Assembly: GCA_012728075.1 (NCBI GenBank)
Contig: JAAYFV010000089.1
Span: 1 to 52,817 of the forward strand
DNA from: Tissierellia bacterium
GTDB taxonomy: Bacteria > Bacillota > Clostridia > Tissierellales > Tepidimicrobiaceae
Length of the DNA stretch: 52,817 nt
Direction of reading: 5' to 3'
Part shown: one piece after another, positions 38,636 to 50,580 of the stretch
How the letters are laid out: every line of letters begins with the position of its first letter
Position numbering within the stretch: position 1 is the first letter of the stretch
Notes under the pieces: model-generated
The model's input: the letters and a program-made list of their open reading frames with translations, nothing else
Database searches by the model: none
What the model was told of the DNA's origin: nothing
Program-made: the position numbers and the translations under genes

Positions 38636-40156
38636 GTGGGGGAAACAATACAACATATGCGGAATCAATTGAATGAGTATTGGAATGAAATGGATAAAAA
38701 TAAACGAAAAAAAATACTCATTATTTCCGCTGCAATAATTCTTACAATAATAATACTTACAATTATACTTACTAGACCTAAATATGAAGTACTTTACGAA
38801 GATCTATCCTTGAAGGATATGGCCCAAATAACTAAAAAATTAGATGAAATGGGAGTGAAATGGAAAACTCCAGATAAAGATAGTAGTACTACTATATTAG
38901 TACCAGCTGATATGAAGAATAAGATAAAAATTGAATTGGCTTCTTATGGTTTACCTAAAGAAGGTTATAGCTTTATAGATGCTTTTAATGACAGTAGCTG
39001 GACCATGACAGATTACGATAAGAAGGAAAGAATGAAATATGCACTACAAAGCGAACTTTCATCCACCATATCGGAAATAGATGGCATTGAAAATGCTACT
39101 GTGTACATAGATGTGAAAGAAGGAACTGGTTTCATATTAGAAGAGAATAAAATGGAAACTACAGCTTCAGTATTTATAGAAAGGACTGACAATAGACCGT
39201 TAAAGGGTGAAACTATAACTGCTATAAAAAATCTTGTAGCAGGTTCAATAAACATGGATCCAGAAAATGTGAAGATAATAGATAGTGAAGGCAAATTGTT
39301 GAGTGAAGAACATGAAGATGAAGATTTTTTATTGACAGATCAATTTGTTATAAAGCACAATTTAGAACTTAGAATAAATGATAGCTTACGAGAATTTTTA
39401 GAAAATGTCTTTGGGGCTGGTAATGTAGATGTGAGATCTAGTGTTAAGATTAATTTTGATAGTGAAAACACAAGTATAGTTGAATTTGCACCTCCAATTG
39501 AAGGAAATGATGAAGGTTTAATTAGAAGTATGGAACAAATAGAAGAACATATGGCAGATGCTACTGAAGGAGGAATACCTGGAGTAGACCCTAATATGGA
39601 TCCTGAAGATTACCAGATGATGGAAGATGGAAATGAACGCTATAGCAAGATTAGCAATACTATAAATTATGAATTAAATGAGATTAATAAAGAAATTAGA
39701 AAAGCACCAGGTCAAGTAGAAGATATTACTGTAGCTGTACTTATCAATAGAAATGCTTTAATTGATGGAGAGTTTACACCAGGGTTAGAAGATGAAATTA
39801 CTGATTTAATTTATGCTGCAACAGGGTTAGATACAAAACAAGTAGAAGTTAAGGCTCAAAACTTTAGAAAGGATGATTTAGAAACAGCAGAAGAGAAAAG
39901 GGACATGAAGTGGCTGCCGATTATATTGTCTATCATTTTAGCATCAGCTGTAGTAGCTTATGTGGCGTATAGAAGACGCCAAGAGGATATTGAAGGGTTT
40001 GAACCAGAAATAGATGAAGAAACACTAATTGAGACTGAAGTACAAGATTTGGAATTTGAAACGGAAGAATCCAAGATGAAGGCACAAATAGACAAACTTG
40101 TTGATAATAAGCCAGAAGCAGTAGCACAATTACTAAGGACATGGCTAAATGAATAG
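38636..40156 (+). CDS. fliF: Flagellar M-ring protein FliF
   Basis: Forms the MS ring in the cytoplasmic membrane. The 506 aa protein has a first transmembrane helix near 25-42, YscJ-like ring-building domains (VLYEDLSLKDMAQI to about 220), a variable periplasmic region, a second transmembrane helix near 425-445 and a C-terminal tail that binds FliG. Start is GTG 38636, 5 bases after GAGGTG. Stop is TAG. Confidence 0.97.
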   Translation: MGETIQHMRNQLNEYWNEMDKNKRKKILIISAAIILTIIILTIILTRPKYEVLYEDLSLKDMAQITKKLDEMGVKWKTPDKDSSTTILVPADMKNKIKIELASYGLPKEGYSFIDAFNDSSWTMTDYDKKERMKYALQSELSSTISEIDGIENATVYIDVKEGTGFILEENKMETTASVFIERTDNRPLKGETITAIKNLVAGSINMDPENVKIIDSEGKLLSEEHEDEDFLLTDQFVIKHNLELRINDSLREFLENVFGAGNVDVRSSVKINFDSENTSIVEFAPPIEGNDEGLIRSMEQIEEHMADATEGGIPGVDPNMDPEDYQMMEDGNERYSKISNTINYELNEINKEIRKAPGQVEDITVAVLINRNALIDGEFTPGLEDEITDLIYAATGLDTKQVEVKAQNFRKDDLETAEEKRDMKWLPIILSIILASAVVAYVAYRRRQEDIEGFEPEIDEETLIETEVQDLEFETEESKMKAQIDKLVDNKPEAVAQLLRTWLNE

Positions 40157-40167
40157 GGTGATTTAAT

Positions 40168-41172
40168 ATGGTAAAGAGAGAATTTAATGGGAAAGAGAAA
40201 GCTGCTATATTATTAATTTCTTTAGGTCCAGAGAAATCTGCAGAAATATTCAAGCATTTAAACGAAGAAGAGATAGAAGAGTTAACATTACAAATTGCAA
40301 ATACCCGAATGGTATCAGCAGAAGAAAAAAGAGAAGTTCTAGAAGAGTTTTACCAAATTGCATTAGCTCAAGAGTATATATCAGAAGGTGGAATAAAATA
40401 TGCTAAAGAAATTTTAGAAAGGGCTGTTGGACCAGATAAGGCAATAGATATAATAAGCAGATTAACTTCCTCCTTACATGTGAGACCTTTTGAATTTATA
40501 AGAAAGGCAGATCCCAATCAATTATTAAATTATATACAAAATGAGCATCCTCAAACTATAGCTTTAATACTATCCTATCTTAATCCTAATCAAGCAGCTC
40601 AAATATTAGCCAATTTGCCACCAGAAAAACAAGGAGAGGTTACAAGGCGAATAGCAATAATGGATAGAACATCACCTGAAGTTGTAAAAGAAATTGAAAA
40701 GGTATTAGAAACTAAATTTTCTGGGATGTTGGCTCAAGATTTTACAACTACTGGAGGAGTACAGACTGTTGTTGATATACTAAATTCAGTAGATAGAGGT
40801 ACTGAAAAGTTTATCATGGAAGAATTAGATATTAGAGATGCTGAGCTAAGCGAGGAAATAAGAAGGAGAATGTTTGTGTTTGAGGATATAGTGGCCTTAG
40901 ACAATAGAAGCATTCAAAGAATTATCAGAGAAATTGATAACTCTCAATGGGCTATTGCTTTAAAAGGTGCAAGTGAAGAGGTTAAGGAAGTAGTATTTGC
41001 AAATATGAGTAAACGACTTGTAGAAATGATAGAAGAAGATATAGAATTTATGGGCCCAGTAAGGATAAGAGATATTGAGGAAGCGCAACAGAATATAGTA
41101 AATGTAATTAGAAAACTTGAAGAAGACGGGGAAATAATCACTCCTAGAGGAGGAGATGAAATCATTGTCTAA
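40168..41172 (+). CDS. fliG: Flagellar motor switch protein FliG
   Basis: Rotor protein that interacts with MotA and converts ion flux to torque. The 334 aa protein has KAAILLISLGPEKSAEIFKHL near 11-31, the EHPQT motif near 126-130 and the C-terminal torque helix FEDIVALDNRSIQRIIREID with charged residues near 237-256. Its end overlaps the fliH start by 17 bases. Confidence 0.97.
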   Translation: MVKREFNGKEKAAILLISLGPEKSAEIFKHLNEEEIEELTLQIANTRMVSAEEKREVLEEFYQIALAQEYISEGGIKYAKEILERAVGPDKAIDIISRLTSSLHVRPFEFIRKADPNQLLNYIQNEHPQTIALILSYLNPNQAAQILANLPPEKQGEVTRRIAIMDRTSPEVVKEIEKVLETKFSGMLAQDFTTTGGVQTVVDILNSVDRGTEKFIMEELDIRDAELSEEIRRRMFVFEDIVALDNRSIQRIIREIDNSQWAIALKGASEEVKEVVFANMSKRLVEMIEEDIEFMGPVRIRDIEEAQQNIVNVIRKLEEDGEIITPRGGDEIIV

Positions 41173-41923
41173 TATTATAAAATCTACAAGAATTATTGAA
41201 AGACAATTAGTATCTAGAGAAGAAGAAACAGATACCTCTATATATGAAGCTCTTTTAGAAGAAGCTAGAGAAAAATACGATGAAATAATTAAAGATGCAA
41301 TGAAAACATCTGAAGAGATTATCAACTCTGCTTATGAAAAATCTGAAGAAGTCTTAAATAATACACACAAGAGAGCTCAAGATATATTTAAAGAAAGTGA
41401 AATAAAAGGATATGAAATTGGTCATAAAAAAGGCTATAAGGAAGGATATGACGATGGTTATTATAAAGGATACAAAGAAGGCAAAGAAGATTCAAAAAAA
41501 TTAATATCCCAAGCTTTGGATATTAAAAAGGAATATATTGACAAGAGAAATTATCTATTAAAGGATGTAGAGAAGGATTTGATTCAACTGGTAATATCTG
41601 TTTATGAAAAGGTACTATATGAAAAAGTAGAAGAAGACGAAGAACTTATAGTATCCTTAATATTAAACGGAATAGATAATTTAGAAATATCACAAAAGTT
41701 AACTATAATAGTATCTGAAGAAGATTATGAAGCAGTTAAAAGATCTAAAGATATTATATTAGCAAAAGCAAGTTTGGTAGATGAAATAGATATACGGATA
41801 AATAGTGATATGATTAGAGGGGATTGTGTATTGGAAACTTCAAAGGGAAATGTAGATGTAAGTATAAACAATCAACTTAAAGAAATTAAAGATTTATTAT
41901 TAACTATAATGAATAATGAGTGA
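41156..41923 (+). CDS. fliH: Flagellar assembly protein FliH
   Basis: Regulator and stator-like partner of the export ATPase FliI. The 255 aa protein has a helical N-terminal half and a Gly/Tyr/Lys-rich run at about 83-110 of GxxxGxxxG-type repeats (GYKEGYDDGYYKGYKEG), the hallmark of FliH. The C-terminal domain resembles V-ATPase subunit E. Start ATG 41156 is only 2 bases from a GGAGG in fliG. It ends in TGA overlapping the fliI binding site. Confidence 0.93.
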   Translation: MKSLSNIIKSTRIIERQLVSREEETDTSIYEALLEEAREKYDEIIKDAMKTSEEIINSAYEKSEEVLNNTHKRAQDIFKESEIKGYEIGHKKGYKEGYDDGYYKGYKEGKEDSKKLISQALDIKKEYIDKRNYLLKDVEKDLIQLVISVYEKVLYEKVEEDEELIVSLILNGIDNLEISQKLTIIVSEEDYEAVKRSKDIILAKASLVDEIDIRINSDMIRGDCVLETSKGNVDVSINNQLKEIKDLLLTIMNNE

Positions 41924-41928
41924 TATAT

Positions 41929-43260
41929 ATGGAAGATAGAATAGATATAAAAAAATATATAAAAGAAGTTAATAGGAGAAGATTTATAAAATACACTGGA
42001 AATATAACAAAAGTTACTGGATTAACTATAGAATCTAATGGACCTATGGCTACCATTGGGGAACTTTGTTATATATATCCTCACAATAGTTTGGAACCTA
42101 TTACTGCAGAAGTTGTAGGTTTTAGAGAAGATAAAATACTTCTCATGCCTTTGGGAGATATGGAAGGGATTGCATCAGGAAGTAAAGTCGTTGCTAGCGG
42201 TAAAACCCTAAGGGTTAATGTAGGAGAGGAACTAATAGGTAGAGTTATTGACGGGCTAGGTAACCCTATAGACGGGAAAGGACCTATAAAGACTGAAAAA
42301 ACATATCCTGTATCTAATTATCCACCTAATCCATTGGAACGTAAGATAATAACTGAGCCCCTTTCCTTTGGCATTAAGGCGGTAGACGGATTGTTAACCT
42401 GCGGTAAGGGACAGAGGATAGGTATATTTGCAGGTAGTGGTGTAGGTAAAAGTACTCTTATGGGTATGGTTTCCAGAAACAGTTCTGCAGATATAAATGT
42501 TATAGGATTGATTGGTGAAAGGGGAAGAGAGGTTAGGGAATTTATTGAAAAAGATTTACAAGAAGAAGGATTGAAAAAATCTGTGGTGGTGGTAGTCACA
42601 TCTGATCAACCTGCTTTAATAAGGGTTAAAGGAGCCTTGGTAACGACTGCAATAGCTGAGTATTTTAGAGATAGTGGAAATGATGTGATGCTACTTATGG
42701 ACTCTCTTACTAGATTTGCAATGGCTCAAAGGGAGATTGGATTAGCAATTGGAGAACCCCCTGTAACTAGAGGTTTTACACCTTCAGTTTTTGCAATAAT
42801 GCCTAAATTATTAGAAAGGGCAGGTACCTCCTCACGAGGCACTATAACAGGTTTATATACTGTTTTAGTAGATGGTGATGACTTAAACGAACCAGTTACC
42901 GATATGGTAAGAGGTATAATAGATGGTCATATTATACTGTCGAGGAAATTAGCCAATCAAAACCATTATCCTGCTATAGATGTGCTAGCTAGTGTGAGTA
43001 GAGTAATGCCAAGTATTATTAATAAAGAACATTTAAATATGGCTAATGCAATAAAAGATGTGATGGCTACTTATAGTGAATCTGAAGATTTAATCAATAT
43101 TGGTGCATATAAAATGGGTTCAAATAAAAAAATTGATACAGCAATTCAGCTGAAGGATGATATAGACCTATTATTGCAACAAGAAGTTTTAGAGAGTTAC
43201 CCATTTGAAGAAACCATTTCTATAATGAATGAAATATATGAAAAAATCAATAACTTTTGA
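41929..43260 (+). CDS. fliI: Flagellar protein export ATPase FliI
   Basis: F1-beta-like hexameric ATPase of the flagellar type III export apparatus. The 443 aa protein has Walker A GSGVGKST near 169, GERGREVREF, DSLTRFAMAQREIGLA and the GTITGLYTVLVDGDD segment. ATG 41929 follows a GAGTGAT site overlapping the fliH stop. It ends in TGA followed at once by TAG. Confidence 0.98.
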   Translation: MEDRIDIKKYIKEVNRRRFIKYTGNITKVTGLTIESNGPMATIGELCYIYPHNSLEPITAEVVGFREDKILLMPLGDMEGIASGSKVVASGKTLRVNVGEELIGRVIDGLGNPIDGKGPIKTEKTYPVSNYPPNPLERKIITEPLSFGIKAVDGLLTCGKGQRIGIFAGSGVGKSTLMGMVSRNSSADINVIGLIGERGREVREFIEKDLQEEGLKKSVVVVVTSDQPALIRVKGALVTTAIAEYFRDSGNDVMLLMDSLTRFAMAQREIGLAIGEPPVTRGFTPSVFAIMPKLLERAGTSSRGTITGLYTVLVDGDDLNEPVTDMVRGIIDGHIILSRKLANQNHYPAIDVLASVSRVMPSIINKEHLNMANAIKDVMATYSESEDLINIGAYKMGSNKKIDTAIQLKDDIDLLLQQEVLESYPFEETISIMNEIYEKINNF

Positions 43261-43296
43261 TAGGGGGAATGGTGGAAGGTAGATTTTAACTTTAGA

Positions 43297-43716
43297 TTGG
43301 AAAAAGTTCTTAATTATAAAAAAACCCTTGAAGATTATAAGAAAAGTCAATATGGTATAGCTCAGAAAAAATTATTTGATGAAGAGGATAAACTTGCTAA
43401 GTTTAATAAATATAAGAATATTGTGAAAAACGAAAAAAATCAAACTGTTATAAAGACCAATATTGGTAATTTAGCTATGTATAATAATTATATTAATGAT
43501 TTAAGCAGAAAAATAAAATCACAAGAACAAATTGTCAATAAAACAAGAAAAGATGCAGAGGAAGCAAAAGAAGAGATGATAACTGCTGTGAAGGAAAAGA
43601 AGATATTTGAAAAACTAAAGGAACAGGAATATGAGGAATATTTATATCAGTTAAAAAGAGATGAAGAAAAACAGACAGATGCAATCGTAAGTTATAAAAC
43701 AAGTACCCAGCAATAG
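43297..43716 (+). CDS. fliJ: Flagellar export chaperone FliJ
   Basis: Coiled-coil stalk protein of the FliI-FliH export complex. From TTG 43297 it is 139 aa of charged helix. The expected FliJ start (xxFxFRLEKVLxYK) is encoded just upstream as VDFNFRLEKVLNYK from GTA 43279. TTG 43297 corresponds to the Leu of that motif and has no binding site, while the real 5' end has a GGTGG-rich stretch (43271-43275) but no canonical start codon. Either GTA is used, a base change or single-base insertion has occurred, or the protein is shortened. Stop is TAG. Confidence 0.82.
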   Translation: MEKVLNYKKTLEDYKKSQYGIAQKKLFDEEDKLAKFNKYKNIVKNEKNQTVIKTNIGNLAMYNNYINDLSRKIKSQEQIVNKTRKDAEEAKEEMITAVKEKKIFEKLKEQEYEEYLYQLKRDEEKQTDAIVSYKTSTQQ

Positions 43717-43726
43717 GGGGAGTATC

Positions 43727-44968
43727 ATGGAAGATATGGGAAATATAAAGCAGAAAAAATCATGGAAGGTAAGATTAATATTGATTACACTATTAATAAT
43801 CCTACCTCTATCTATATTAACTTTTTTATATTTTAACAATAAGTCCTTCAATTCTAAAGCAAACAATATATTAAGTAAGTTGCCAGGAGCTTTAGGAGAA
43901 TATTTTTATTCATCATCTGATTTTGATGATGTGGACAGTGAATACAAGAAGGAGTATCTAGCAAATCATTTTTTATCTTTAGACTCTAATACGGCTGCAG
44001 ATAAGCTATACATAATAAAAGGAGAAGATGAAAAGCTATATGCAGAAATTATAAGAATTATGAATTCAAATTCTCCTACAAAGACTAGTGAAATAATAAC
44101 TATAGTTAGAAATAGGGAGCAAAGTAAAAATATCCTTTCATCTATTTATGATGAAGTAAAAGATAGGAATGAAAGTAAATTTTTAGATGAGGTAAATAGA
44201 TTAGAGAACCAGGATTTATTGAGTACCATCAATGAAATAACAAAGAGGATGGAGAAAGATAAGGAGTTTAGAGATAATATTTCTGAAATATTTACTGTAA
44301 TGGATGAAGAAAAAGCTGCAGAAATTTTATATTATCTAGATGAATCTCTTAAAGATGATATATTGTTCTCTTTAGAAGACAATATAAGATCTACCATAGA
44401 AGCTAAGTTATCAGCTAAAAAGGCTGAATATTTAAAACTAGTGGATTTAGCTGGCTTATATGAAGTAAAACCAGTTGAAACAGCAGTTGAAGAAATAGGA
44501 AATACAGAAATATACACTATAGATGAATTAGGGACTATATATAGAAATTTATCTATACTCAAATCTGCTGAGATACTATCAAAAGTAGATGATGATGATT
44601 TTATACAAGAATTATTTAATTCCATTAGAAAACAAGAAGAATTAAATGGAGATGAAAAATCTATAACTGGAGAGATTAGCAAAACAATACAATTTATGAG
44701 TGAATACAATAAAAAAATTGATGATTTAGTTTCTGTTTATGAGAAGATGAATCCTAGTAAAGTCGCTAAAATTGTTGAAAAGATGATGGACAACGATACT
44801 ACAGTAACCTATTTGGAGATATTTTCTGAACCGGCTTACGAAATTACAGACTCTACTATAGTAATAGATGTGCTATCTAGAATGGGAAATAAAACTTTAT
44901 CAAGTATTATGAATTATATTAGTACTGACAAAGCTTCTAAACTAACTCAAATGTTAGTTGAACCATAA
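43727..44968 (+). CDS. MotE/YlxF-like flagellar protein, enlarged
   Basis: A 413 aa protein with one N-terminal transmembrane helix (about 15-35) and a long helical exported or periplasmic-side part. Segments such as MDEEKAAEILYYLDE near 191-205 and MNPSKVAKIVEKMMDN near 344-359 resemble the MgtE N-terminal repeat found in MotE chaperones. B. subtilis ylxF occupies the same slot between fliJ and fliK but encodes only about half this length. The duplication of MgtE_N-like modules is unusual. Function here (a motor or rod chaperone) is inferred from context. Confidence 0.65.
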   Translation: MEDMGNIKQKKSWKVRLILITLLIILPLSILTFLYFNNKSFNSKANNILSKLPGALGEYFYSSSDFDDVDSEYKKEYLANHFLSLDSNTAADKLYIIKGEDEKLYAEIIRIMNSNSPTKTSEIITIVRNREQSKNILSSIYDEVKDRNESKFLDEVNRLENQDLLSTINEITKRMEKDKEFRDNISEIFTVMDEEKAAEILYYLDESLKDDILFSLEDNIRSTIEAKLSAKKAEYLKLVDLAGLYEVKPVETAVEEIGNTEIYTIDELGTIYRNLSILKSAEILSKVDDDDFIQELFNSIRKQEELNGDEKSITGEISKTIQFMSEYNKKIDDLVSVYEKMNPSKVAKIVEKMMDNDTTVTYLEIFSEPAYEITDSTIVIDVLSRMGNKTLSSIMNYISTDKASKLTQMLVEP

Positions 44969-44992: not shown

Positions 44993-46018
44993 ATGATAAA
45001 CATTAATTCAATACTAGAAAGCTTAGAAACTTCTAATACAAACATTTCTAATAATAAATCTATTAAAGAAAAATCAGAGGATTTTTCAAAGATATTTGAA
45101 AAAGAATTAAGCCTAAAAGATAAAAATAAATATATTAATAAAGAATCCAAAAATCCCATGGATAAAACAAAATCCATAAAAGAAATTACTAAAGAACATG
45201 TAGAAGATAATTGGCTTACCAAGGAAGAAGATAAGACTAAAATGGATATAAAAGATGAAGTATTAGCATTGATGAATGAGCTGTGGATGTTAATAGATAA
45301 ATTAGGACTTCAATTTAAAAACCAAGAAAATTTTGAACAGTTAAAGTTAGATATGGATTTTCAATTAGCTAAATTTGAACAATTGATAGAAGAAAATTCA
45401 TTTGAATATTCAGCTTTAGAGAATATTATGGATTTGATAGAGTATATAGAAGAATTTTTAATAGAAATTAAAACTATACGTCCATCAGGGAATGAATTGG
45501 AAACTATAGACGAATTTCCATTAGAGTTAGAAGAAGTAGAAGTATTACTAAATCAAATTAAAGAGACAATTGAAAATACTATTCCCTATAAACAACAAGG
45601 AAAATCAACAGATAGTAGCAATAGTAATACAAACAAGGAAAGTCCTGATGAATTTGATTTAGTACAGAAACCATTAGAAGCTCAAGAAAAGTCAGAGGAG
45701 TGGATACAGTCATTAGAAAACGAACCTGATTTAGGAGATGAATCTATAATAAATGATATTGTAATAGGGGATACTCAAGAACTACTAGAAGAAAGGGTAG
45801 AATTTAACGATTCCCCAAACAACCCTTTATTAGAAATAGTTGATAGAGAGATTAATACCACAAAGAATATAGAGGGAAATAAAGAGGAATTAAAAGAAAT
45901 AAATCATAGGGATATATTTAAACTGATTGTAGAAGAAGCAAAGTTAAATTTAGATGATTTTAAGCAAGAAATAAGGTTGAAATTAAAGCCTGAGATACTT
46001 GGGGAATTGATGCTATAG
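44993..46018 (+). CDS. fliK: Flagellar hook-length control protein FliK, part before an in-frame TAG
   Basis: FliK measures hook length and switches export specificity via FlhB. This 341 aa frame contains the low-complexity, Asn/Glu/Lys-rich ruler region and the first strand of the C-terminal hook domain, KQEIRLKLKPEILGELML, then stops at TAG 46016. The next codon is ATG and the same frame carries the rest of the domain. Without that second part the specificity switch should fail. GGAGGTGAT precedes ATG 44993. Read as one gene it would be 448 residues. Confidence 0.85.
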   Translation: MININSILESLETSNTNISNNKSIKEKSEDFSKIFEKELSLKDKNKYINKESKNPMDKTKSIKEITKEHVEDNWLTKEEDKTKMDIKDEVLALMNELWMLIDKLGLQFKNQENFEQLKLDMDFQLAKFEQLIEENSFEYSALENIMDLIEYIEEFLIEIKTIRPSGNELETIDEFPLELEEVEVLLNQIKETIENTIPYKQQGKSTDSSNSNTNKESPDEFDLVQKPLEAQEKSEEWIQSLENEPDLGDESIINDIVIGDTQELLEERVEFNDSPNNPLLEIVDREINTTKNIEGNKEELKEINHRDIFKLIVEEAKLNLDDFKQEIRLKLKPEILGELML

Positions 46019-46339
46019 ATGGAGATGGAAAAAGGTTCTATATTAGCCAAGATCATGGTAGATAATTACAGGACTAAAGAGATTATAGAGGCAAATCTAT
46101 ATCAATTAAAAGAAGATATGAGGGAAAATGGTTTAGATATTAAAACCTTTGAAGTATTTGTAGGAACAAATGAGGATTTTGAAAGAGAAGGTGACTTAGA
46201 TTTTAATTCAAACAAAAAACAGAATAAATCACCAACTAAATTAAAAATTAAAAATAAAGAATTAATAGAAAAAGAGACATATATGCAAAATACATTACCA
46301 ATTATAAATGAAAAAGGGAGTATAAATTTATTGGCTTAA
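46019..46339 (+). CDS. fliK: FliK C-terminal hook-domain part after the TAG
   Basis: In-frame continuation (106 codons) of fliK: MEMEKGSILAKIMVDN, EIIEANLYQLKEDMRENGLDIKTFEVFVG completes the conserved FliK C-terminal domain, followed by a polar tail. It follows TAG 46016 with no gap (TAGATG), so it could be made by amber readthrough or by termination-reinitiation; there is no separate binding site. flgD follows with its own GGAGGTG. Confidence 0.85.
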   Translation: MEMEKGSILAKIMVDNYRTKEIIEANLYQLKEDMRENGLDIKTFEVFVGTNEDFEREGDLDFNSNKKQNKSPTKLKIKNKELIEKETYMQNTLPIINEKGSINLLA

Positions 46340-46351
46340 GGAGGTGTTAAT

Positions 46352-46951
46352 ATGAAAATAGGTAATATAGAATATAAAGAACATATTCGTTATATTGATG
46401 ATGAAATAGATAATAAAAAACCTTTAGAAACTAAAAAAAACGATTTAGATAAAGATGCTTTTTTAAGATTATTAACAACACAATTAGCTAATCAAGATCC
46501 TTTAAATCCAATGGAAGATAAGGAGTTTATAGCACAATTAGCACAATTTAGCTCTTTAGAACAGATGCAAAATTTAAATAAAAATGTTGAAAATTTAAGT
46601 GAAGAGCTTTTAGAGACTATGGATATAATTAATTTAAATCAAATTCAAGCAAATGTATTAATGCTTAAAGAGATAACTAATATTAGAAAAGCTTTAGAAA
46701 CTTATTTTGGGGAAATTCCTGAAGATCAAGTTGGGAAAATAGAATTATGGACCAAAATAAAATCTGCTGAAGAACTGAAGGAATCTAATTATACAAAAGA
46801 AACTTGGGAAAAATTTAGCACAGCTTTATTAGCTGCTAAGGAAATATTTGATAAAGAAGATGCAACTTTAGAAGAAATTCAAAATGCTTATGATGAATTG
46901 GTTACTGCAATAGAAAATTTAGAAAAAGCAGATTCTAAGGAAGATGATTAA
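46352..46951 (+). CDS. flgD: FlgD hook-capping scaffold with a FIVAR-like C-terminal domain
   Basis: FlgD caps the growing hook. Residues 28-100 are the conserved N-terminal FlgD domain ([20 protein letters not shown] and [18 protein letters not shown]). The usual C-terminal Ig/tudor hook domains are absent. Instead residues about 128-195 form a helical unit with the FIVAR pattern: [58 protein letters not shown] modules are typical of surface and carbohydrate-active proteins, so this pairing is odd. 199 aa; ATG after AGGAGGTG. Confidence 0.88.
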
Positions 46952-46977
46952 TGTAATTCAAGAATAGGATGATAACC

Positions 46978-47358
46978 ATGAATAATATAAAAATAAAACA
47001 ATTAGAAAGTCAAATTATTAACTCATCTCAAAACAATAGGAAAATGAATAATATATCTAATAAGAATTTTGAAGAAATACTTGAAAAAACAAAAAATAAA
47101 AATAATGAAATTAAATTTTCTAAACATGCTATTTCAAGAATAGATACAAGAAATATTCAATTAAGCGAAGATGAGTTGGAACAATTGAAAATTGGATTTA
47201 ATAAAGCGGAAGAAAAAGGAATAAAGGATGCTTTAATATTTGTAGGAGATAAGGCTTTTATTGCTAGTATAAAGAATAAGACTATAATAACCACATTTAG
47301 CAAAGAACAATTAAAAAACAATGTATTTACTAATATAGATGGGGCAGTTATAGTATAA
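46978..47358 (+). CDS. Flagellar operon protein (TIGR02530-type)
   Basis: A 126 aa protein of the small family found between flgD and flgE in Bacillota. Its core is FSKHAISRIDTRNIQLSEDELEQL, a continuing helix, then ALIFVGDKAFIASIKNKTIITTF. The N-terminal 40 residues are Asn/Lys-rich and probably flexible. The molecular role is unknown; conserved location implies hook assembly. ATG 46978 follows AGGATGAT; ATG 46969 is an alternative overlapping that site. Confidence 0.88.
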   Translation: MNNIKIKQLESQIINSSQNNRKMNNISNKNFEEILEKTKNKNNEIKFSKHAISRIDTRNIQLSEDELEQLKIGFNKAEEKGIKDALIFVGDKAFIASIKNKTIITTFSKEQLKNNVFTNIDGAVIV

Positions 47359-47434: not shown

Positions 47435-48808
47435 ATGATGAGATCAATGTATGCTGGGGTATCTGGCTTAAGAGCCCACCAGAACAAGATGGATGTTATA
47501 GGAAATAATATTGCTAATGTAAATACCGTAGGTTATAAAAAAGGCACTATGACCTTTCAAGAGGTATTTAGTCAAACTATAAGAGGGGCTAGTGCTCCTC
47601 AGGAAGGTAGAGGAGGTACCAATCCTCAACAGGTAGGACTAGGAGTATCCATTGGCTCCATTAACACTATTCATACTAAAGGTCCTGCTCAGAGGACAGA
47701 CAATCCTGAAGATTTAATGATAGATGGAGAAGGCTTTTTTGTAGTATCTGATGATACTAATTTTGAGAATAGATACTATACTAGAGCTGGAAACTTTACC
47801 TTGGATAGGGATGGAAACCTAGTTACTGCTGATGGATATAAGGTGTTAGGATATGTAGCCGACGAAGAAGGAAATATTACGTCAGAAGTTGGAGGAATTA
47901 GAATTAATAAATCTGAAACTAAAGCACCTACTGCAACTAGTAAAATTTGTTTCGAAGGAAATTTAGACTCTAGATTGGAAGAAAATGGTGTGCATAAAGC
48001 TGATACTGTTATAAAAGACAGTTTGGGAAATTCCTATATAATTACTTTCAAATTTAAGAAGCTAACAAATTCTCAAGAAGGTAATACTTGGGAACTTACT
48101 GTAGATAGAATTACTGAACAAGCAACAGGAAACTATATAGAAAATCCAAGTGTAATCCCAGAAGGAAATTCTTTAGAATTAGAATTTGATTCTACTGGAA
48201 AATTAGTTAGAATTGGGGAAAATTCTTTAGAAGGAGAAGATGCAGGAGAATTTAAAGTATTGTTAACAGGATTAAGTGATATTAAATTTGATAGGAACAA
48301 GGAAAAAAATACAATAGATCCTGTTAGCCCATCAGGAACTTTTGAAAATATAACTTTATTTGATTCAGAAGATAATGATAGTTATAGGCTACTTACCCAA
48401 CATGCTAACGATATGGATGCAAAACCTTATGCAAAGGATGGTAACTCTTCAGGAAAGCTAGAAGGGTATTCCATCGATGATACAGGAATTGTATTAGGGG
48501 TTTTTACTAATGGGGAGAGGAAAGCATTAGGGCAAATTATGTTAGCTAAATTTGATAATCCAATGGGACTTCAAAAGATGGGGAACAACTTTTTTGTAGA
48601 TACAAGAAACTCTGGGGAACCTCAATTTGGAAAGGCTGGTACTAGTGGATATGGACCTATAGCATCGGGTACATTAGAGATGTCTAATGTAGATTTATCC
48701 ATGGAGTTTACTGAAATGATAACTACCCAAAGGGGTTTCCAAGCTAATTCTAGAATTATAACTACATCCGATGAGATGTTACAAGAACTAGTCAATATGA
48801 AAAGATAA
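47435..48808 (+). CDS. flgE: Flagellar hook protein FlgE
   Basis: Subunit of the hook, the flexible joint between rod and filament. The 457 aa protein has MRSMYAGVSGLRAHQNKMDVIGNNIANVNTVG-type rod/hook N-terminus (within 1-35), the DGEGFFVV segment, a variable middle domain, and the C-terminal NVDLSMEFTEMITTQRGFQANSR helix. GGGAGGT precedes ATG 47435 (ATG 47438 adjacent is an alternative). A GC-rich hairpin follows the stop. Confidence 0.96.
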   Translation: MMRSMYAGVSGLRAHQNKMDVIGNNIANVNTVGYKKGTMTFQEVFSQTIRGASAPQEGRGGTNPQQVGLGVSIGSINTIHTKGPAQRTDNPEDLMIDGEGFFVVSDDTNFENRYYTRAGNFTLDRDGNLVTADGYKVLGYVADEEGNITSEVGGIRINKSETKAPTATSKICFEGNLDSRLEENGVHKADTVIKDSLGNSYIITFKFKKLTNSQEGNTWELTVDRITEQATGNYIENPSVIPEGNSLELEFDSTGKLVRIGENSLEGEDAGEFKVLLTGLSDIKFDRNKEKNTIDPVSPSGTFENITLFDSEDNDSYRLLTQHANDMDAKPYAKDGNSSGKLEGYSIDDTGIVLGVFTNGERKALGQIMLAKFDNPMGLQKMGNNFFVDTRNSGEPQFGKAGTSGYGPIASGTLEMSNVDLSMEFTEMITTQRGFQANSRIITTSDEMLQELVNMKR

Positions 48809-48859: not shown

Positions 48860-49072
48860 ATGATTAAAGTGAAAAGGCTAAATGGAAAAGAATTTGTAGT
48901 AAATAGTGATTTAATACTATATGTTGAAGAAACCCCTGATACGGTAATCACCCTTACTACTGGTCAAAAAATAGTAGTAGCAGAAACGGTGGATGAAATA
49001 ATAGATAAAGTTATAGACTTTAAATCTAAATCTATAGAATATAAAAGAATAGTTGATGAGAAAGAGGTGTAG
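48860..49072 (+). CDS. flbD: Flagellar protein FlbD (SwrD family)
   Basis: A 70 aa protein beginning MIKVKRLNGKEFVVNSDLI with VEETPDTVITLTTGQKI, the standard FlbD/SwrD pattern. SwrD raises flagellar power in B. subtilis by supporting stator function, consistent with motA-motB directly downstream. AAAAGGTGGG precedes ATG 48860. Its TAG is one codon (CAA) upstream of the motA TTG and in the same frame. Confidence 0.93.
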   Translation: MIKVKRLNGKEFVVNSDLILYVEETPDTVITLTTGQKIVVAETVDEIIDKVIDFKSKSIEYKRIVDEKEV

Positions 49073-49075
49073 CAA

Positions 49076-49861
49076 TTGGATATATCAACAATTATTGGTC
49101 TCATTTTGGGACTAGCATTTGTTATAGGGGGAATAGTCACATCTGGGGATATAAGTTCCTATTTTGATCTACCTTCAATAATCATCGTATTAGGAGGGAC
49201 TATAGCTTCAACTTTAGCTAGTTTTCCATTGGAAAATTTTTTCAATACATTTAAAATTATAAAAAAAGCATTTGTACGTGATGAAATTTCCCCAGATAAT
49301 GTAATAGAAGAAATCATAAACTTGGCTAATGTGGCAAGAAAAGAAGGATTGCTATCCTTAGAGGAGTATGCAGAAAATTTAGATGATGATTTCTTGCAGA
49401 AGGGAATAATGTTAATAGTTGATGGCACTGATCCTGAATTGGTTAGAAACATATTAGAAACTGAGTTAGTATTTTTAGAAGAGAGACATACTGAAGGGCA
49501 GAGTATTTTTGAAACAATGGGTACATATTCACCTGCATTTGGTATGTTGGGAACATTAATTGGATTAATAAATATGTTACGACATTTGGATGATCCTAGC
49601 ACTATAGGTCCAAATATGTCTGTTGCGCTAGTGACTACTTTTTATGGTTCCATGTTAGCTAATGTGGTTTTTTTACCAATGGCTCAAAAACTAAAAATTA
49701 GAAGTAAATCAGAAATATTGGTTAAGGAACTAATGGTAGAAGGATTACTATCTATACAAGCAGGAGAAAATCCTAGAATCATTGAGGAAAAGCTTAAGAC
49801 ATTTATACCTCCTGAAATGAGAAGAGATTATAGGAAACAGCTGGAGAGAGAGGGAATATAA
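49076..49861 (+). CDS. motA: Flagellar stator protein MotA
   Basis: Ion-channel stator subunit of 261 aa with four transmembrane helices. GLILGLAFVIGGIV starts TM1; LPSIIIVLGGTIAST lies in TM2; AFGMLGTLIGLINML and NMSVALVTTFYGSMLAN form TM3-TM4, with the large cytoplasmic loop that contacts FliG between. Start is TTG 49076, 6 bases after GAGGTG within flbD. Its TAA overlaps the motB ATG. Proton versus sodium use cannot be decided here. Confidence 0.95.
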   Translation: MDISTIIGLILGLAFVIGGIVTSGDISSYFDLPSIIIVLGGTIASTLASFPLENFFNTFKIIKKAFVRDEISPDNVIEEIINLANVARKEGLLSLEEYAENLDDDFLQKGIMLIVDGTDPELVRNILETELVFLEERHTEGQSIFETMGTYSPAFGMLGTLIGLINMLRHLDDPSTIGPNMSVALVTTFYGSMLANVVFLPMAQKLKIRSKSEILVKELMVEGLLSIQAGENPRIIEEKLKTFIPPEMRRDYRKQLEREGI

Positions 49862-50580
49862 TGAGAAGGCGAAGACGAAAAGATGAACAGAATAATACTG
49901 GTAACTGGCTTACAACTTATAGTGATATGGTAACCTTGTTACTAACTTTCTTTGTACTTCTGTTTTCTTTTTCTGAAATCGATGCACAAAAATTTAGAAG
50001 CATAATGAGTAGCTTTCAAGGTGGTGCAGGAGTGTTAGAAGGAGGTACAAGCTTAAATTTAGATGAAAATCTTGGATCTACAGAAGGATTATTGGAGGAA
50101 GATTTAGAAAAACTAAAGGATATTTTAGAAGAATATGCAGAGAGCATAGGGCTTGGAGAAGAAATTATTCTTTCTGTAGAAGAAAGGGGTCTTGTTGTAC
50201 GTTTCATGGATAATGTGCTTTTCGATTCAGGGAAGGCAGATTTAAAACCTGAGTCCAAGGAGATTTTAAAAAGTGTAGCTGAGATATTAAATAGAGATGA
50301 ATTTAAAGATAAATTGATCAAAGTTGAAGGACATACGGATACAGATCCTATACTCTATTCTAAAAAATATCCAACAAATTGGGAACTATCTGTAATTAGG
50401 GCTACTAATGTATTAAGATATCTTGTGGAAGAAGAAAATATTGAAGGAAATAGGATTTCTTCTTCAGGATATAGCTATTATAGACCTATAGCTCCTAATG
50501 ATACTAGGGAAAATAAGGCTAAAAATAGGAGAGTAGATATAGTTATTTTAAGATCTTCTTTTGAAGAAATTGAGCCATAG
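49861..50580 (+). CDS. motB: Flagellar stator protein MotB (OmpA family)
   Basis: Anchors the stator to peptidoglycan and provides the ion-binding Asp. The 239 aa protein has a basic N-terminus, WLTTYSDMVTLLLTFFVLLFS near 15-35 with the essential Asp in SDM, a plug/linker region, and the OmpA-like domain with VEGHTDTDP and NRRVDIVILRS. Start overlaps motA. It ends TAG, and the frame stays open into fliL. Confidence 0.96.
   Translation: MRRRRRKDEQNNTGNWLTTYSDMVTLLLTFFVLLFSFSEIDAQKFRSIMSSFQGGAGVLEGGTSLNLDENLGSTEGLLEEDLEKLKDILEEYAESIGLGEEIILSVEERGLVVRFMDNVLFDSGKADLKPESKEILKSVAEILNRDEFKDKLIKVEGHTDTDPILYSKKYPTNWELSVIRATNVLRYLVEEENIEGNRISSSGYSYYRPIAPNDTRENKAKNRRVDIVILRSSFEEIEP

Follow-up and report, generated by a model that had tools for sequence, protein, structure and literature searches.

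We found that the hook cap protein FlgD encoded in the window, the whole 52,817-nucleotide stretch of DNA analysed here, almost certainly ends in a FIVAR domain. The 199-residue protein is read from a single open frame (46352-46951, +) and constitutes a genuine clade-restricted domain fusion within a standard machine, one of moderate interest. As for what the added domain does, we favour, with a probability of roughly one half, the reading drawn from analogy that the hook cap carries it at its outer end as a helical 'petal'. The gene, its parts and its neighbours are as follows.

38636-44968 (+): fliF, fliG, fliH, fliI, fliJ and an MgtE_N-like protein (profile scan)
44993-46339 (+): fliK, with an in-frame TAG at 46016-46018 (Flg_hook PF02120 in the downstream half)
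46340-46346 (+): GGAGGTG, ribosome binding site of flgD (read from the sequence)
46352-46951 (+): flgD with FIVAR tail (ORF reading, Pfam)
46412-46591 (+): FlgD N-terminal region (PF03963), residues 21-80 (Pfam, E 1.2e-25)
46508-46708 (+): predicted long helix, residues 53-119, ending in a 22-letter stretch (AlphaFold2, alignment)
46736-46939 (+): FIVAR domain, residues 129-196 (Pfam match 134-190, models)
46969-47358 (+): small flagellar operon protein (PF12611; Pfam)
47435-48808 (+): flgE, hook protein and substrate of the cap (Pfam Flg_bb_rod, FlgE D1, D2, Flg_bbr_C)
48860-50580 (+): flbD, motA, motB (profile scan)

The window flgD sits in a normal flagellar operon that runs from fliF to motB on one strand, with fliK upstream and the small flagellar gene, then flgE, downstream. 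No pattern was seen in the lengths of the neighbouring flagellar genes. Between fliJ and fliK lies a 413-residue protein with an MgtE_N-like match (43727-44968). The TAG in fliK (46016-46018) falls near the conserved C-terminal part, and the copies in relatives are intact; it is either a real nonsense change, in which case disturbed hook-length control would be expected, or an error in the 229-contig assembly. Pyrrolysine at this codon was rejected, as the PylS matches in the genome reached 21.5 bits against a cut-off of 178.

The N-terminal part is that of a normal FlgD, as the first-pass annotation had held. PF03963 matched residues 21-80 with 89.9 bits against a cut-off of 27, the segment is strongly conserved across 13 aligned sequences, and the NCBIfam FlgD models matched the first half of the protein below their cut-offs. 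The annotation had also described the C-terminus as a three-helix FIVAR module, to be checked by profile search and fold prediction, and both agreed with it. PF07554 matched residues 134-190 (E 5.2e-8; 33.9 bits, cut-off 29.2), covering profile positions 7-70 of 71, and a model of the tail alone had three helices (pLDDT 81.5, pTM 0.68), placed at 129-140, 149-167 and 173-196. NCBIfam models for lacto-N-biosidase, beta-L-arabinobiosidase HypBA2 and metalloprotease ZmpB also matched the tail, below their full-length cut-offs. Pfam gave no match in the window protein to either domain of the classical FlgD C-terminus, tudor (PF13861) or Ig (PF13860); we took this as non-defining for FlgD, since two relatives (L010 and L108) also have neither.

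Both the FlgD and the FIVAR family were matched in all eight tailed proteins that we identified, the window's included (E <= 0.01). Six of the eight exceeded the FIVAR cut-off in the whole-genome scan, with G017 (28.9) and G015 (25.2) below it. Ten controls derived from the 84-residue tail, nine shuffled and one reversed, gave no FIVAR match at E <= 1, and the tail was 40-48% identical to four FIVAR stretches from three family genomes. A sequence search of the PDB gave a best E of 0.016 (EngBF 0.016-0.17, NagH 0.052). With the tail model, the top nine Foldseek rows were chains of NagH, EngBF and ZmpB (E 0.04-0.28, nothing below 0.001), which we take to carry FIVAR or FIVAR-like modules; the weak sequence matches (NagH and EngBF in the PDB, the ZmpB model in NCBIfam) agree with FIVAR-type modules in those chains. 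AlphaFold2 modelled the whole protein with a disordered N-terminus, helices at 34-46 and 53-119 and three more (mean pLDDT 71), the long helix scoring 71-87 in ten-residue blocks; with its pTM of 0.34 this model does not fix how the tail is placed against the stalk.

The first-pass annotation had proposed listing FlgD proteins of this architecture. We found the FIVAR tail in eight of 20 family genomes spanning five genera: G000 (the window's), G012, G016, G011, G017, G015, G019 and G005. In this count the flgD of G018 is broken by a contig end, and G009, G010 and G013 gave no FlgD match. Across the 249 genomes of the order, where the FlgD part was matched in at least 81 (listed rows), there was no further full-length match among the matches listed, and samples of the class (391 genomes) and phylum (398) likewise held no other fusion among the matches listed. 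In a named collection the tail occurred at five loci among the best 80 of 187 relatives (Schnuerera sp. xch1, [Clostridium] ultunense, Clostridium sp. Cult1 and Cult2, and one Tissierellia MAG). These five proteins are identical to those of five of the eight family genomes and are therefore not additional cases.

Among the matches listed for the order, the eight tailless FlgDs with a match extending past residue 140 (G224, G175, G218, G230, G021, G037, G206, G201) did not match the tail query at E <= 0.001, nor did the FlgDs of G008 and G105. Three candidates from the wider samples were rejected: the class-sample protein of G274 has a tudor domain and no tail-HMM match, that of G570, a short FlgD, was likewise not matched by the tail HMM, and the phylum-sample protein of G910 matched neither the tail query nor the tail HMM. 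The G105 protein, from the same order, is a 304-residue FlgD with a DUF3659 (PF12396) tail (L118:615-1526, -). The window genome has no FIVAR besides that of FlgD (E <= 10); outside FlgD, FIVAR (E <= 0.001) was absent from seven of the eight bearer genomes and present once in G019. Our literature search, with subscription journals largely outside its reach, found no publication treating both FIVAR and FlgD.

The first-pass annotation had placed the FIVAR in the stead of Ig/tudor hook domains, and this part of its account did not stand. The close relatives that we read have, as a rule, a short FlgD: in L010 and L108, which are tailless, only the FlgD N-terminal model matches, and 23 of 26 short FlgDs end 4-32 residues past the conserved ..A.E.Y helix end, the motif search having failed in the other three (L017, L034, L109). 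As the FlgDs of near relatives are short and without Ig or tudor domains, the FIVAR was added onto an already short FlgD, and replacement of Ig/tudor by FIVAR in this line is ruled out.

The history of the tail involved more than one change. A tree built from nine operon genes of 19 genomes, with flgD represented by its N part alone and three genomes less than half filled, required three changes of the tail, forced by its starred branches. On this tree the tailless G014 is the sister of the window's genus, and four further tailless genomes (G008, G001, G006, G007) are nested beside the tailed G011. A single clade of the eight bearers was rejected (p-AU 2.2e-5); because the bearers are not one clade, gains, losses or transfers must have occurred. 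On the operon tree, a single gain plus two losses is as costly as two gains plus a single loss. In a 73-domain tree the eight FlgD tails grouped against 65 other FIVAR domains (94/90; 92% of 200 bootstrap trees), on an alignment of 76 columns only and with the bootstrap not settled, and FastTree also grouped them (0.95). A single gain of the tail is favoured.

The nearest outsider to the FlgD tails was a FIVAR of G014, from the same family (85/84). It lies in a 145-residue open frame at a contig end (L134:5887-6321, +), and the FlgD of that genome has no FIVAR. Three other FIVAR proteins of the order were scanned. Two of them (L186 and L187) are SLH surface proteins, with seven and five FIVAR stretches, which accords with the annotation's statement that FIVAR is known from surface proteins; in the third, the contig-end fragment L134, FIVAR alone was seen. 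Several adjacent repeats of L186 are identical or nearly so. Most likely, an ancestor within the family captured a FIVAR once from a surface-protein FIVAR repeat; the domain would then have retained its fold while its surface drifted, and would have been lost in some lines.

Our favoured reading of the role follows the Salmonella cap. There, five FlgDs come together, their N-terminal helices making up a stalk and their C-terminal domains a petal region; the N-terminal part is indispensable and by itself weakly sufficient, and the C-terminal part aids assembly (PMC8595650). By analogy, five copies of the window FlgD would form the hook cap, with residues 53-119 making a stalk in the hook channel, like helix 56-98 of Salmonella FlgD, and with five FIVAR bundles at the outer end, where the Salmonella protein has beta-rich petals. 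These helical petals would widen and steady the lid, keeping unfolded FlgE at the tip. A domain of this small size, built of helices and without cysteines, should be easy to unfold for export. Stabilisation of the cap, which the first-pass annotation had also proposed, would fit. The petal reading is backed by the stronger conservation of the tail's core columns and by the tail dN/dS in most pairs (values below). Against it, the close relatives G014, G008, G001, G006 and G007 have no such domain, so a hook can do without it. A surface-protein domain is attached at the cap end where Salmonella has its tudor and fibronectin-III-like petal; it is retained across five genera of a single family, and close relatives with otherwise alike operons have none. 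Such natural pairs, the window's genus with the tail and G014 without, make the role of the outer part of the cap testable.

It is possible, but doubtful, that the FIVAR is instead a near-neutral decoration, riding along with little effect on a FlgD C-terminus that tolerates additions. The close relatives with short FlgDs and no FIVAR are compatible with this, as is the variety of FlgD tails in the phylum, which includes the DUF3659 tail of G105 and tudor-only forms. Divergence from the sister genome G012 points the same way: the two proteins agree throughout residues 1-120, their seven differences all falling at 121-172, with a dN of 0.042 in the tail against 0.005 in the N part, where the single nonsynonymous count arises from path averaging at the Leu 86 codon. 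However, the core T, W and closing A/L residues are retained in all eight tails across five genera, and for five of the seven pairs compared the dN/dS of the tail lay at about 0.25-0.30. The seven values were 0.465, 0.263, 0.255, 0.77, 0.301, 0.249 and 0.288, of which 0.465 belongs to G000-G012 (8 nonsynonymous and 4 synonymous changes, too few to judge) and 0.77 to G017-G015, and synonymous sites were near saturation in several other pairs. In the N part, dN/dS was 0.029-0.074 in six pairs and undefined in one.

An unlikely account is envelope contact, the first-pass annotation's idea, in which the FIVAR bundles would touch wall polymer, the S-layer or its glycans during passage of the hook tip through the thick wall. 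L186 and L187, two of the three further FIVAR proteins that were scanned, are surface proteins with SLH domains, and SLH domains occur in all eight genomes with a FIVAR-tailed FlgD. However, nine of the remaining 12 genomes of the family have them too, so the link to S-layer genes does not discriminate. Published findings on FIVAR point in both directions: FIVAR-holding repeats of Embp bind fibronectin (PMC7587433) and FIVAR has been termed a putative carbohydrate-binding module (PMC7846122), but the one-FIVAR adhesin AsaA is reported without fibronectin binding (PMC7846122).

The conserved columns of the tail are mostly the core common to all FIVARs (1.8 distinct residues per core column against 3.2 in the rest). 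Twelve columns are invariant, nine of them core; the Pro, Thr and Glu columns are the only invariant ones outside it, which speaks against envelope contact, and that Thr is general to FIVARs (61 of the 65 others). Compared with those 65 domains, the tail columns contained no FlgD-specific ligand site that stood out. A net charge of -7 to -15 would be unfavourable for binding anionic wall polymers, but the 65 other FIVARs are as acidic (-25 to -1, mean -13), so that charge argues neither way on a surface function. In its strongest form, a hook cap with a captured adhesin- or S-layer-type module whose five copies engage the wall or S-layer during hook growth, the idea is quite improbable; if true, it would give flagellar caps a second way, besides the rod-cap muramidase, to handle a thick, S-layered envelope. 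Envelope contact would be the more exciting reading, and its support is circumstantial.

That the tail is a convergent acidic three-helix bundle without FIVAR homology is very improbable. In favour of this idea, VIA-align scored unrelated bundles of three helices (the Hsp70 lid, CAMP factor, SCIN) equally high (Z about 9-11), the Foldseek E-values are weak and two of the eight members stayed below the FIVAR cut-off when whole genomes were scanned. The window tail's score over the curated Pfam cut-off, the matches in all eight members, the silent composition controls and the 40-48% identity to FIVAR stretches of the family speak against it and leave it close to refuted. Since unrelated bundles score equally, fold alone proves little, and the FIVAR call rests on the profile match.

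The window FlgD shares with Salmonella FlgD an N-terminal export/cap region followed by a long helix and differs in its C-terminus, a FIVAR bundle where the Salmonella protein has a tudor and a fibronectin-III-like domain (PMC8595650). With the short FlgDs of its own order, such as those of Tissierella praeacuta DSM 18095 (L029) and G014 (L010), it shares the N-terminal part and the helix ending in ..A.E.Y, with 80% identity to the G014 protein over residues 1-123. Unlike the window protein, these short FlgDs have no FIVAR and end 19 (L029) and 17 (L010) residues past the motif. The FIVARs of the SLH proteins L186 and L187 belong to the same sequence family and have the YT..[ST]W motif, but they come as seven and five stretches, whereas FlgD, a flagellar axial protein, bears a single copy. 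In helix 3, all eight FlgD tails have a Tyr where 54 of the 65 other FIVARs have a Leu. Among solved structures, those of NagH, EngBF, ZmpB and Embp were among the Foldseek matches of the tail (E 0.04-0.92); these proteins are glycosidases, a protease and an adhesin.
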